35,405 bases of DNA from a virus: IMG/VR virus record IMGVR_UViG_3300048839_001537, positions 1-35,405 of that record. One strand, given 5' to 3'. Positions 4,839 to 26,150 of this stretch are shown piece by piece (position 1 is the first letter of the stretch; every line of letters begins with the position of its first letter). The position numbers and the translations under genes are program-made. The notes under the pieces are model-generated. The model was not told the origin of the DNA. It saw only the letters and a list, made by a program, of their open reading frames with translations, and made no database searches.

Positions 4839-4841
4839 GAG

Positions 4842-5612
4842 ATGAGCTGTCTGTTGGTTGGAAAATATAATTATTCACTCCCGGATGATTGGTCCGGGGT
4901 TTCCGATGCTCAGTTTTTGGCTTTTGCAAAATACAGGGCGCGGAATCTTTCGGAACGGGAGATATTGAGAAGGCTGGTATTTGCCTGGAGTGGAATGCCG
5001 GCAAAGGTTTATCTGCTCATGAATTTTGCTCAAGTGACCAATATTGCTCAGAGCTTGGATTGGGTATTTACAGAAAGCTATCCGTCTAAAAACATGATCC
5101 CTACGGTGGTTTCCGGCGGGGTGAAATTATACGGACCGGGTGATGGGTTCCGCCATGTGCTAGTGAAGGAATGGCTTTGTGCTGATCCTGTCATTAGGGT
5201 GTATCAGAAGGAGAAAAGTATAAAGAGCCTGGATAAACTGGTGTGCTTTCTCTATAGGCCGGAGCGCGCGGATGGTGTGATGAGTGGTGACAGGCGAGAG
5301 CATTTTGATGAGTTTGTGTGCATGGATCGATTGGATCTGATTGCTAAGTTGTCACATGCAGAGAAGCTGGCAATTGCGATGAATTATATCGGTATGTGGA
5401 CACAGGTGGTGGCTGATTTTAAACGGGCTTTCAGTGGTGGTGGAAGCGGAAAAAACTTTGGTGTGCCGGGAATGGTGCATGATTTAGCAGGGCCTGAGCT
5501 TGGTACTGTTCAGGAGATTGAAAGCAATTGGACAATCAGAAATTTACTTTGGATTGTAGAGAAAAACGAGACGCGGAGATTGGAGGCAAAATCAAGAAAC
5601 AATAATGAGTAA
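4842..5612 (+). CDS. Hypothetical protein of the tail gene block
   Basis: 256 residues, mixed alpha/beta, not recognised. It has an N-terminal half rich in aromatic residues (YSLPDDW, FAKYRARNLSEREILRRL), a Gly-rich loop (GGGSGKNFG) near residue 200 and a charged C-terminus. It starts 3 bases after the spanin candidate and overlaps the next gene by 8 bases. In comparable Bacteroidetes prophages a protein of this type lies just upstream of tail genes, where tail assembly chaperones usually sit. That role is a guess from position. Confidence 0.5.
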   Translation: MSCLLVGKYNYSLPDDWSGVSDAQFLAFAKYRARNLSEREILRRLVFAWSGMPAKVYLLMNFAQVTNIAQSLDWVFTESYPSKNMIPTVVSGGVKLYGPGDGFRHVLVKEWLCADPVIRVYQKEKSIKSLDKLVCFLYRPERADGVMSGDRREHFDEFVCMDRLDLIAKLSHAEKLAIAMNYIGMWTQVVADFKRAFSGGGSGKNFGVPGMVHDLAGPELGTVQEIESNWTIRNLLWIVEKNETRRLEAKSRNNNE

Positions 5613-15475: not shown

Positions 15476-15511
15476 TTTGTTGCATATATAGAAGCAAATA
15501 TAAAAACATAA

Positions 15512-15736
15512 ATGCAATTAACTAATAAAGCCTTAGAGGCAATCACTTCAAAGCCAAGGATATTAAACATGATTGCACTTTCGTGTGAGCGATCAGAGTC
15601 TGCCATCAGAAGGTGGGTACACAGAAATGATCCTATGTTGACCACAGCCGGTGTTCTGGACATAATTAAGGCGGAAACAGGTCTAGATGAAAGAGAGATT
15701 CTTTCTGAACGTGAAACGGTTCAAAAGGATGCTTAA
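15512..15736 (+). CDS. Small Cro-like DNA-binding protein
   Basis: 74 residues. Helical throughout, with a helix-turn-helix-like section at about residues 14-50 (PRILNMIALSCERSESAIRRW) and a C-terminal acidic helix. First gene of the rightward early operon, divergent from the repressor, and directly beyond the two GAAAAC operators: the normal place for Cro. The start codon lies just past the operator zone with a short A-rich leader. The next gene overlaps it by 8 bases. Confidence 0.65.
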   Translation: MQLTNKALEAITSKPRILNMIALSCERSESAIRRWVHRNDPMLTTAGVLDIIKAETGLDEREILSERETVQKDA

Positions 15737-16112
15737 TAAAACTCTTTACATATCTGCTCCTCCGGGCTATTGTGACAGGTACAACTGCATGGCATACGAG
15801 TCTGCACTTCGTTCTTTGGTTGAGATTGGATGCTGTGTAGTGATCCGTGAGGAGTTGTATAAAGTGAATAATTGGTTTCGGTATATGAGGTTATGTATGA
15901 AGGAACTATTAAAGTGTGACGGTCTCGTGATTATGCCTGGTCAAAACGTAAGGAAAAGTACTGGAACAGAAGTGCGAATAGCTGCGTCATTAAACATTCC
16001 CGTGATTGACCTTAGTAGTCGGTTTTATTGGGGAGATGACTTCACTACTGGAGATGTAAAACAGTTAATTCATCAATATCTGATCCATGAAAGCATCCAC
16101 CCACTTAGTTAA
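15729..16112 (+). CDS. DUF4406 family protein (nucleoside deoxyribosyltransferase-like fold)
   Basis: 127 residues from ATG 15729; longer frames upstream overlap the Cro-like gene and are unlikely. The pattern fits DUF4406: a first strand LYISAP, Asn in the first helix region (YNCMAYESAL), a second strand CCVVIREEL, 'LLKCDGLVIMPG', 'STGTEVRIAASLNIPVID'. This family shares the fold of nucleoside 2-deoxyribosyltransferases; in phages its substrate is unknown. The 'S-T-G-T-E' stretch supplies the Glu (about residue 86) that matches the position of the catalytic acid in the enzyme family. A role in nucleotide metabolism during replication is inference. Confidence 0.75.
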   Translation: MLNKTLYISAPPGYCDRYNCMAYESALRSLVEIGCCVVIREELYKVNNWFRYMRLCMKELLKCDGLVIMPGQNVRKSTGTEVRIAASLNIPVIDLSSRFYWGDDFTTGDVKQLIHQYLIHESIHPLS

Positions 16113-18553: not shown

Positions 18554-18916
18554 ATGAGCAACCTATCAGAACAAACCAAAAAATTCCCGTGGACTGAATT
18601 CTACGAAAATGTGAAGCGGTGGCAATCATTGCTGGACAAGATCGAAGATAAGACTGGTGAGAATTTCAAATATTACTCCAAAATTCTGGATTATTTATAC
18701 ATGCTGGCTTCGAAGGAGAAGCAGATTGATGCCATCAAGTTGGAAGAATCTAACTTGAGAGAGTATGCAAAATTTCTGCAGGAGAGAAACAATTTTCTGG
18801 AGCAAACTATTTTGAAGCACCGGACCGCTGATGAGATTTTAAATGATGTTACCTTATTAGGTTATAAAAACATTATTCTTCAAAATATAATGCCGGAGGA
18901 GGTCACTGGTGGATGA
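18554..18916 (+). CDS. Hypothetical early protein upstream of replication ATPase
   Basis: 120 residues from ATG 18554; a GTG at 18521 would add 11 residues and overlap the preceding stop. A helical protein with 'WTEFYENVKRWQSLLDKIEDKTG' and a long Glu/Lys-rich helix. It overlaps the following replication gene by 8 bases, suggesting joint expression, possibly as an accessory to replication. Confidence 0.5.
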   Translation: MSNLSEQTKKFPWTEFYENVKRWQSLLDKIEDKTGENFKYYSKILDYLYMLASKEKQIDAIKLEESNLREYAKFLQERNNFLEQTILKHRTADEILNDVTLLGYKNIILQNIMPEEVTGG

Positions 18917-21080
18917 ACTAATGCTTCCGGATTTATTGGGCAATGAAGGCTGGTCCGTTGAAAAGCGTGCTGAATTTAAGCGTGTACAGTTGGTGATAGG
19001 CCGTATTGAAGAGGCCAATGCTGATGTGACAAATAATTTCGGTGATGATTGGGCTATTTTGGCTAAGTGCCTGGCTACGTTTGGAGATTTCGGGAAGCCA
19101 CTTTTTATGGTGCTCTCCAGATTGAATCCTGCTTTTGATGAAAAGAAGGTGAGTGCTCAGTATGATGCAGCTCTGAAAAAGCCTTTCAAGTCCTGCGCGA
19201 AATTGTTTACCGTGGCACGGGAGTATGGTGTAGACACGAAGATCAGTACCAAAGTGAAGGAAGGCAAAACGGAGGTGGAAGATGTGCTTCCTGAGGGTGC
19301 AAATATTGCAGATTATAAGGAATTTGGATTCTGGGAGCAGAATGGAGCGTATTATTCCATCGGTTTGAAAGGTCAGGTGATTCCTGTGACTAATTTTTTC
19401 ATCCGGATCTTATTTCACGTTCAAACCGGTGCGGAAGAGGCTTATCGAATTATTGAGATTAAGAATGTTTATGGCCATAGCGCAGTGATCAATCTGAACA
19501 CGGATGATTTCGTGTCTGTTGGCTCGTTTAAGAAGGTCGTGGCCAGACGTGGCAATTATATATTCAAGGGGAATGATGTGGACCTGTGCAGGCTGCAGGA
19601 TAAACTACAGAGAGAAGAGCGTCCCACTAAGATGGTGGAAGTGCTCGGATATCATCGCCAGGCGAATGCTTACTTTTTTGCCAATGGTATGTATGACTGC
19701 GGTGAAAAGGATGAATTTAAAGGCGTGGATGAGTACGGAATTTTGGAGCATGAGGGCATGAATTATTTCATCCCTGCTAATTCGAAGATCTATGCCAATA
19801 AGGATGATCAGTTTGTGAATGATAAGAAATTCATATTTCAGGTTCAGGAGGGTATGGATTTTACATCATGGGCTGAAAAGTTCGTTGGTGTCTATGGTAA
19901 GCGTGGATGGATGGGGATTATATTCTATGTCTCATGTATTTTCCGGGATATCATTCACAAGGGAACAAACAACCGCTTTCCGATCATGAACATGTATGGA
20001 CCGCGTGGATCAGGAAAGGGTACCATGATTGAGTCTCTGATGCATTTGTTTGGAAAGCCACAGGATCAGTTGATGTTGGGTGGTGCCAGTACCACGGTTG
20101 GTTTTATGAGGAAATTTGCTCAGTATTTTAATGCTGTGGTGTGGCTGGATGAATACAAAAACAATCTCAGGCCACAGTTTATTGAATCCCTGAAAAATAT
20201 TTATGATGGTATTGGGTATGAGCGTGGAAAGAAAGATCATTCCTTCCAGACTCAAACTACTCCGATTCACTCCGGGTGCATTTTGAGTGGACAGGAGATG
20301 CCTACCATTGAGCCGGCTTTGTTTTCACGGGTGCTTTTATTGGCTTTCGAAGAATTGCATTTGAATGAAGAGATGAGGGATCAGTTTGGAAAGTTGAAGG
20401 ATGTGGAGCAAAAAGGGCTTTCATTCATTACCGTGAATTTACTCAGATTGAGAGCCAATTTTCAGAAGCAGTACAAAGAAGTATATCAAAGAGAGTATAA
20501 GTTGCTGGCCAATTCCCTGCAGAGTTCTGATGTGATGGAGCGAATGATTTGCAATTATGCTGTTATGAATGCCGTGTGCTCTATTTTGATGGAATCTGAA
20601 AAGTTGCCTTTCACCTTGGATCAGTTTAAAGAGTTTAGTAGTGATATGCTGTTGAAGCAGCATTTCATTCTCACCGGTTCGGATGATTCTTCCAAGTTCT
20701 GGGAGATGGTGCAGACTTTGTTTGTGAATGGTACGATCAAAGAAGGAAAGGATTTCATGCTTTCAGATGGGTACTTGTATATCAGAATTCAGAATATTTA
20801 TGGTGAATATGCCAAAGAGCTCAGGCAGCGTGGTGATCCTAATATTTTAGCAAAGTCTACCCTGGAGAATTATTTGGAGAGTGATCGTAGGACGTTTGTG
20901 AATAAGAATAAAAAGCAATTCTCAGATAAGAGCTACACATGGACCTGGCAATTCAAGTATAAGGAATTGGGCTTGGATATGATTCGCGGGGATGAGTTTG
21001 AGGTGAGCACCAAGCGGAAGGAGATGCGTGTGGAAGTTGGTATGCAGGATGAGGTTGTGGAGAAGAGTGAGGTGTTTTGA
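18909..21080 (+). CDS. Primase/helicase-type replication ATPase
   Basis: 723 residues, GTG start coupled to the upstream gene. A small N-terminal domain (about residues 15-110, 'DDWAILAKCLATFGDFGKPLFMVLSRLNP') is like the PriCT-type domain found beside primases. The C-terminal ATPase has a Walker A GPRGSGKGT (residues 364-372, Lys370) and a Walker B AVVWLDEYKN (Asp414, Glu415). A 'VLGYHRQANAYFFANGMYD' segment before the ATPase recalls DUF927/helicase-primase fusions. It most likely unwinds DNA at the phage origin; no polymerase-type TOPRIM or AEP active site is visible, so primase activity is not shown. The TGTCCA array lies about 1.2 kb downstream. Confidence 0.75.
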   Translation: MDELMLPDLLGNEGWSVEKRAEFKRVQLVIGRIEEANADVTNNFGDDWAILAKCLATFGDFGKPLFMVLSRLNPAFDEKKVSAQYDAALKKPFKSCAKLFTVAREYGVDTKISTKVKEGKTEVEDVLPEGANIADYKEFGFWEQNGAYYSIGLKGQVIPVTNFFIRILFHVQTGAEEAYRIIEIKNVYGHSAVINLNTDDFVSVGSFKKVVARRGNYIFKGNDVDLCRLQDKLQREERPTKMVEVLGYHRQANAYFFANGMYDCGEKDEFKGVDEYGILEHEGMNYFIPANSKIYANKDDQFVNDKKFIFQVQEGMDFTSWAEKFVGVYGKRGWMGIIFYVSCIFRDIIHKGTNNRFPIMNMYGPRGSGKGTMIESLMHLFGKPQDQLMLGGASTTVGFMRKFAQYFNAVVWLDEYKNNLRPQFIESLKNIYDGIGYERGKKDHSFQTQTTPIHSGCILSGQEMPTIEPALFSRVLLLAFEELHLNEEMRDQFGKLKDVEQKGLSFITVNLLRLRANFQKQYKEVYQREYKLLANSLQSSDVMERMICNYAVMNAVCSILMESEKLPFTLDQFKEFSSDMLLKQHFILTGSDDSSKFWEMVQTLFVNGTIKEGKDFMLSDGYLYIRIQNIYGEYAKELRQRGDPNILAKSTLENYLESDRRTFVNKNKKQFSDKSYTWTWQFKYKELGLDMIRGDEFEVSTKRKEMRVEVGMQDEVVEKSEVF

Positions 21081-22218: not shown

Positions 22219-22250
22219 AGTCCGGAGCTCCACACTCCGGACTTTTTTTT
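22219..22250 (+). terminator. Intrinsic terminator of early operon
   Basis: AGTCCGGAG (22219-22227) pairs perfectly with CTCCGGACT (22235-22243) across a 7-base loop, followed by a run of T to 22250. Stem of 9 pairs plus U-tract is a textbook Rho-independent terminator for transcription from the left. Confidence 0.9.
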
Positions 22251-22300: not shown

Positions 22301-22506
22301 TGGACACAGTGGACACAATGGACATAGATTTATAAAGATTTAATTATTAATACTATATATAAAATATTTTCTCAATTCTCTCTTAATCTGTGTCCATGAA
22401 CGTCCATCTGTGTCCATGAGCGTCCAAGAAAAAAAGCTCCATGGACGCTCATGGACACAGATTAAAAGTTAAGTATATCAAAATGAGGCCAGTGTCCAAA
22501 TGTCCA
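22301..22506. repeat. TGGACA/TGTCCA box array with long inverted repeat, candidate origin
   Basis: Eleven copies of TGGACA, TGTCCA or the one-base variant with CG (TGGACG/CGTCCA) lie in 206 bases. Three tandem 9-base copies (22301-22327) point right; an AT-rich block of about 60 bases (22321-22385) follows; then TGTCCA boxes at 22391, 22401, 22411 and 22421; a 21-base perfect inverted repeat (22406-22426 with 22442-22462, loop 15); and two more at 22493 and 22501. Iteron-like repeats plus an AT-rich region resemble initiator-binding origins; operator clusters are an alternative. Confidence 0.6.
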
Positions 22507-24151: not shown

Positions 24152-24874
24152 ATGTATAACTTCTATATTGAATACAAGGAATCGATCAATGATCTTCTCA
24201 CAATTCTCATGCTTGTGTTTGGTTTGGTTGGTGCGTATAAGGCTGATCTTCACAAGCACCTTGTCTGGTTGTGGAATAAAACAGTCATTCCAATTTGGCA
24301 CAGAATGATTGGCACACGGGAAACAAATCGAAGGCTCGATGAGCTCACACGGGTGGTTGAATCCAGTGCGCGGGCTCAGTCCGTGTTTGCTCAGAACATC
24401 ATGCATGGAATGAGTGAATTGGGTGACAGAATGGAGCACATCGCTGCAGAGCAGAATAAAATACATGTTGAGATCACCATGCCTAATGGTGGCGGTCGTA
24501 TGGTTGACACATTAAACAAGATTGCCGGGGTGCAGTGGGCCAGGGATTATGAAGATGATGATGCCATGATTCTTCATACTGATGCGAATGGCTCAGTGAC
24601 AAGGGTGAACAGGCTACTGACCAGAATTGTTGGCAGGCCGGAATCAGAGCTTCTGGGTAGCGGGTGGATCAATACGATTGCCTTTGAAGATCGAGAGCGT
24701 GTGAAGAAGGATTGGCATGATGCTGTCAAAAATAAAAGAGACTATGAAGGGGAGTATCACATCATCAATTCAAAAGGGAAGAGCATAAACGTTGAATCCA
24801 GGGCAACACGGATGGTGGATGGAAAGGGCAATGTGATTGGGTATTACAGAAGAATCAGAATAAAAAAAGAATAA
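24152..24874 (+). CDS. Membrane-anchored PAS domain protein
   Basis: 240 residues. One transmembrane helix at about 13-30, a juxtamembrane helix and coiled-coil-like region (about 50-100), then a PAS fold at about 125-240 with the usual marks: a 'ILHTDANGSVTRVNRLLTRIVGRPESELLG' start, 'W-x-N-x-I-x-x-x-D-R' loop, and the PAC end with 'EGEYHIINSKGK...VIGYYRRIRIKKE'. No output domain (kinase, cyclase, effector) follows. PAS domains sense small ligands, light, oxygen or redox state and mediate dimerisation. Role in the phage unknown; regulation of lysis or of the adjacent membrane proteins is speculation. Confidence 0.75.
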   Translation: MYNFYIEYKESINDLLTILMLVFGLVGAYKADLHKHLVWLWNKTVIPIWHRMIGTRETNRRLDELTRVVESSARAQSVFAQNIMHGMSELGDRMEHIAAEQNKIHVEITMPNGGGRMVDTLNKIAGVQWARDYEDDDAMILHTDANGSVTRVNRLLTRIVGRPESELLGSGWINTIAFEDRERVKKDWHDAVKNKRDYEGEYHIINSKGKSINVESRATRMVDGKGNVIGYYRRIRIKKE

Positions 24875-25697: not shown

Positions 25698-26150
25698 ATG
25701 CAACCAATCACTATTGATATTCCTACAAAGGCACATTCAAAAAAATACCTGGAGAATGAATTTGGTACTCCTGCCGAGATGAATCGCAGGGATAATTTAG
25801 GGACCATGCTTTTCCTTCTATTAGAGAAGGATAGTCATGAATTAGATTGGAGCTATAAGACTAGGGAATATACTTCCAATATCTCTGTGAGTTTGACCAG
25901 TTCATTCTATCACAGGAAGGGCGTTTCTCTTACTTCCACCAATGTGATCTTTTTTAATAACGTGGTTGAATCGGAGATCAAAAAACTTTTCCGGACGTTC
26001 ATGGATGCTACCTTGAAAGCAGATCAGAAGAAGAAAAAGAAGGTAGCCATTGAAAATTTTATGGAGAAGATGGGTTTCAATTCTGATGAATTGACGTATG
26101 AAATGCTGAAAAAAGATTACTACCGGTATGAAAGTTATTTAAATAACTGA
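25698..26150 (+). CDS. Hypothetical protein preceding the head/tail-tube genes
   Basis: 150 residues, helical with a Lys-rich stretch (QKKKKKV) and a C-terminal 'ELTYEMLKKDYYRYESYL' motif. The ATG sits 4 bases after a possible -7 element, so a leaderless or near-leaderless mRNA is possible. The inverted repeat in front hints at autoregulation, and the protein could be the regulator. I do not recognise a DNA-binding domain. Confidence 0.45.
   Translation: MQPITIDIPTKAHSKKYLENEFGTPAEMNRRDNLGTMLFLLLEKDSHELDWSYKTREYTSNISVSLTSSFYHRKGVSLTSTNVIFFNNVVESEIKKLFRTFMDATLKADQKKKKKVAIENFMEKMGFNSDELTYEMLKKDYYRYESYLNN

Follow-up and report, generated by a model that had tools for sequence, protein, structure and literature searches.

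In a virus genome of 35,405 nucleotides (IMG/VR record IMGVR_UViG_3300048839_001537, positions 1 to 35,405; hereafter the window), we identified an array of short repeated words at positions 22301-22506 that is, with a probability of roughly 0.8, the replication origin of this phage, to which the DUF927 helicase that it encodes would bind. The window, a 35.4-kb record encoding an integrase, an S24-type CI-like repressor, a portal and a head maturation protease, is a temperate phage of Bacteroidota. The array precedes the late genes and follows an intrinsic terminator (22219-22243, plus strand; 9-bp stem and T tail) at the end of the early operon upstream, the terminator scan being in good agreement with the preliminary description, which had placed the array right after the early-operon terminator.

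The array carries 11 TGGAC/GTCCA sites within 206 bp, consisting of eight copies of TGGACA/TGTCCA (at 22301, 22310, 22319, 22391, 22411, 22452, 22493 and 22501) and three copies of the variant CGTCCA/TGGACG (at 22401, 22421 and 22442), and all eleven half-sites described beforehand, in two variants and both orientations, were recovered within the 206 bases as stated there. Counted from the start of the array, the forward sites stand at offsets 0, 9, 18, 141 and 151, and the inverted sites at 91, 101, 111, 121, 193 and 201. They fall into two arrays, array A (22301-22426) and array B, an inverted copy (22442-22506). Array A is composed of a left block of three TGGACA sites with 9-bp spacing (22301-22324, plus strand), a core proposed as the DNA unwinding element (22325-22390, 85% AT) and a right block of four inverted sites with 10-bp spacing (22391-22426, minus strand); both blocks were assigned from the sequence and the spacing across loci, and the core from its AT ranking against contig windows. 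Array B is composed of a left block of two sites 10 bp apart (22442-22457, plus strand; from the offsets and the spacing across loci), a core (22458-22492, from the sequence) and a right block of two inverted sites 8 bp apart (22493-22506, minus strand; from the site positions). The AT-rich spacer noted earlier holds as well, the 68-bp stretch 22324-22391 being 85% AT, a value reached by none of the sampled contig windows of the same length. The density was tested against 200 dinucleotide shuffles: the 206-bp stretch richest in the 5-mer holds the 11 sites observed, against at most 5 in the shuffles, and in 60 shuffles no 6-mer at all produced the architecture set as our criterion. A search of the array segment against Rfam gave no family matches.

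The proposed initiator is encoded at 18909-21080 (plus strand), the array A starting 1.2 kb downstream of this gene. Pfam analysis identified DUF927 (E=1.1e-6) and gave no match to D5_N or Pox_D5, and a sequence search of PDB returned nothing useful. Using the AlphaFold model of the helicase (mean pLDDT 80, pTM 0.63) for a fold search of 350,542 PDB chains, we found the top four matches to be SCCmec Cch (5dgk) and SaPIbov1 Rep (8tch), with E values from 5e-12 to 4e-11 and Cch as the best. The helicase belongs to the self-loading, origin-binding helicase class with the Cch/SaPIbov1 Rep fold, bearing out the replication ATPase previously noted upstream of the array. Its relatives were found both in viral contigs and in prophages carried by Sphingobacterium and its kin; DUF927 was matched in 12 of 13 of them, a BT4734-like primase in 6 and PriCT-2 in 4, and most are larger than the window protein, carrying these two domains at the N-terminus. 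The C-terminal end of the model is a winged helix, with helix 649-658 and wing strands 663-670 and 676-683. Model and alignment together point to helix 649-658 as the predicted recognition helix (codons at 20853-20882, plus strand).

A downstream array was found in nearly all the helicase relatives of 40-60% identity. Arrays of TGGAC lie between the helicase gene and a conserved late-operon gene, herein referred to as gene X, in 11 of these loci (G001, G002, G004-G008, G010, G015, G019 and G020; helicase 40-56% identical). At the same place TGGAC is replaced by TGGATA in four loci (G003, L119, L124 and L153), and the words TGTCCCA (L151), TGGAACA (G009, G011 and G012), TCGAACA (G014) and TTCCTACA (L133 and L135) were also found there; in G011 and G014 the array is located directly downstream of the helicase gene. 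The grammar across the relatives is two to three sites with 9-bp spacing, a usually AT-rich core, and two to three inverted sites with 10-bp spacing. For 24 loci, the spacing is 9 bp in 32 of 35 left-block intervals and 10 bp in 41 of 59 right-block intervals. The word varies between phages while the grammar is constant. The cores are mostly among the most AT-rich stretches of their own genomes, this property being weaker in G002, G012 and G015 and absent in G001. The named phages laban6-1 and Porphyromonas phage019b also have repeats of a similar type downstream of their primase-helicase gene. A GC-richer repeated sequence that was also caught by the TGGAC pattern (L017, L020-L022, L025, L028 and L036) was set aside. 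The preliminary description had proposed a search for conserved TGTCCA boxes in relatives carrying the same helicase: the place and layout of the array are kept, but in some relatives the word itself is replaced.

This replacement of the word allowed a comparison with the helicase sequence. After comparison of 640 alignment columns for 21 loci, residue 676 was the sole column with disjoint residues between the TGGACA phages and the rest, with Tyr in all 12 TGGACA phages and Gln (five) or Asn (four) in the others. In the window this residue is Tyr676, located in the wing (codon at 20934-20936, plus strand). One locus, L118, of which the array was recognised later, outside the 21 loci, is concordant, having Tyr together with TGGACA sites. 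When the winged helix was left out of the tree, three independent switches of the word were counted, and residue 676 changes at each of them; the sign test on these three switches gives p = 0.25, the switches being too few for significance alone. The concordance between residue and word suggests that wing residue 676 of the helicase probably reads the array word.

The same covariation bears on an alternative in which the array is a multi-site operator: bound to the words, gene X or some other regulator of the phage would switch expression from early to late, the arrays marking late-operon promoters. Its location after the early terminator and ahead of the late genes is what such an operator would show, gene X lies directly after array A in most relatives and is flanked by A and B, and the array copies are found at transcription-unit boundaries. 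Gene X (25698-26150 in the window, plus strand) was present in all the close relatives compared. The word, however, covaries with the helicase and not with gene X: the window gene X is closest to the gene X of the TGGAACA phages (26-30% identity) despite its TGGACA array, and the column of gene X that best separates the words is merely hypervariable. Moreover, gene X gave no convincing match in Pfam or PDB, fold search included, and no recognisable DNA-binding fold, and array C, a third array present in some phages, is situated between the last late gene and the convergent integrase gene and not before a late promoter. Since its sequence does not follow the word, gene X is disfavoured as the array binder, and we regard the operator as an unlikely explanation. 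Apart from this question, gene X precedes the head protease genes in the close relatives compared, and its predicted fold is confident (pLDDT 87).

A further alternative is an operator of the CI/Cro type for lysogeny. The window does encode an S24-type CI-like repressor, and operators of this kind are short inverted sites, but within the repressor region (15480-15760) we found no repeat of the array kind, only single TGGACA copies being present nearby. This assignment is not supported and is considered highly improbable.

The perfect inverted repeat (22406-22462 in total, with 21-nt arms at 22406-22426 and 22442-22462 and a 15-nt loop) was verified as previously described, and gave a folding energy of -25.3 kcal/mol (z = -6.9) as single-stranded DNA. 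Its origin was indicated by the number and arrangement of arrays among the relatives. Most relatives carry a second, inverted array B 1-2 kb downstream of array A, and four phages carry array C in addition. Fusion of A with B was seen in the window, G001 and G015, and the hairpin of the window is the right block of A facing the left block of B. The hairpin is not a conserved signal because the G001 version is imperfect with a 60-nt loop and the matching arms in G015 are the outer ones. The hairpin looks like a by-product of the fusion of inverted arrays A and B, and its proposed role as an extra signal is not supported, no perfect hairpin being found in the relatives.

The presence of several arrays per genome in some phages could also be explained if the initiator binds the arrays as auxiliary or partition-like sites, which serve copy control (handcuffing) or segregation and not the start of replication. 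Helically phased blocks around a core are also found in par-type centromeres. Against such a role, the core is usually AT-rich, the array follows the initiator gene in the way known from SaPIs, and the genes searched included no partition gene. We consider this explanation improbable, somewhat more so than the operator.

The proposed replication origin and its DUF927 helicase resemble known systems of self-loading initiators. The C-terminal domain of SaPI Rep is reported to recognise iterons directly downstream of its own gene, and the isolated C-terminal domain of Cch2 to bind short iterons of a putative origin, again downstream of the gene (PMC7581432). SaPI origins are described as having opposed repeats that load two head-to-head hexamers (PMC9894130). 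The window combines a DUF927-type helicase with the predicted SaPIbov1 Rep fold (8tch) and short opposed iterons downstream of the helicase gene, and an AT-rich region is located between the iteron blocks, as would be expected of a Rep-ori of the SaPI/SCC type; among the relatives, G001 departs from this. Unlike SaPIbov1, the window is a complete temperate Bacteroidota phage, the BT4734-like primase is fused to the helicase in most of the relatives, and array A lies at some distance from the helicase gene, with the fixed 9-bp and 10-bp spacings and an inverted second array. The identity as a SaPI satellite was excluded, since the window encodes a portal, a head maturation protease and an integrase and is thus a phage. 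The likeness extends to SCCmec Cch, the best fold match, and Cch2, whose iterons also lie downstream of its gene; unlike the phage arrays, the Cch2 origin consists of three direct AAGTG repeats, and neither an inverted second block nor a phased double array is reported in the text consulted. Taken together, the array and the helicase are best read as a variant on the Rep-ori module known from SaPI and SCC elements.

Other types of origin fit less well. The SV40 T-antigen origin resembles the array in its working, with short words in inverted blocks beside an AT tract and head-to-head ring helicases, but the layout is not homologous and T-antigen binds DNA by its N-terminal domain. The alpha protein of phage P4 is a primase-helicase initiator acting with two separated iteron regions (ori and crr), but alpha is of the D5 type, in contrast to the window helicase; arrays resembling this one do stand beside D5-type helicases in other phages. 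An iteron-plasmid (Rep_3/RepA) or lambda-O origin, with long iterons of 17-22 bp, was rejected, the array having 6-bp words at 9-10 bp spacing, and no Rep_3/RepA or O initiator was found among the genes searched.

We propose that the DUF927 helicase would read the 6-bp words via its C-terminal winged helix and sit on each helically phased block, the inverted blocks holding two helicase rings in head-to-head orientation, one at each flank of the AT-rich core; the core would then melt, and replication would start at the array with forks leaving both ways. Array B, inverted and fused to A in the window, may be a duplicated or auxiliary copy. From the preliminary description, the origin with iterons and an unwinding region gains support from the helicase class, the kept layout and the covariation, while the hairpin signal and the Cro/CI operator find none. 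Counted against the origin are the two or three arrays in some phages, more than a single origin needs, the lack of an array between helicase and gene X in L150 and of any array by the architecture criterion in the distant named phages L158, L159 and L161, the G001 core not being AT-rich, and a GC skew that shows no sign change at the array along the window. Among the papers searched on repeats of TGTCCA/GTCCA, origins of Bacteroidetes phages and phages with DUF927, none described this module in a phage. To our knowledge, the origins of most phages with their own primase-helicase are unmapped, and the array would serve as a readable signature for locating them. The SaPI/SCC type of self-loading initiator would be extended to temperate Bacteroidota phages, and the constant 9/10-bp asymmetry would limit the ways in which a single origin can be loaded with two helicase rings.

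Arrays were also found beside other helicase types, in contigs without a DUF927 gene that were picked by the DNA pattern alone. A D5-type or VapE gene precedes the array by no more than about 2 kb in G017, L168 and L169; in G018 the array starts inside the 3' end of a D5/DUF5906-type gene, and the repeats of G016 start where a VapE gene has its 3' end. One may consider a type of phage origin that is widespread, in which the fixed asymmetric grammar (a 9-bp block, the core and an inverted 10-bp block) would be common to DUF927, VapE and D5-type initiator helicases and the specificity would be switched by one wing residue (Tyr, Gln or Asn), separating related prophages into origin incompatibility groups; we put forward this generalisation tentatively, at somewhat less than even odds. 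Five GC-richer viral contigs (L170 and L176-L179) have a near-identical TGGAAC array in common; a DUF927-type helicase was not found by profile in the stretches covered, and L170 also encodes a family A DNA polymerase.

Similar words were observed in bacterial sequences. On the chromosome of Sphingobacterium mizutaii (L063), a solitary TGGACA array with G010-like spacing is located at 4841-4981 between ordinary-looking genes, and the genome gave no DUF927 helicase match at E <= 1e-20; this array may be left over from a prophage, or possibly be a decoy that has been kept. Long TGGAC/GTCCA hairpin arrays, intergenic and several per genome (L055, L056, L059-L062, L066, L068, L071, L077, L078 and others), were found in Parachlamydiales, Chlorobi, Lentisphaerae and other MAGs, and probably represent a separate repeat family. 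Within the window itself, the early region encodes a DUF4406/nucleoside 2-deoxyribosyltransferase-like protein (15687-16112), and the late operon encodes a protein with a PAS domain (24152-24874; PAS_3, E=1e-12) and an N-terminal stretch that looks membrane-spanning, which is unusual for a phage.
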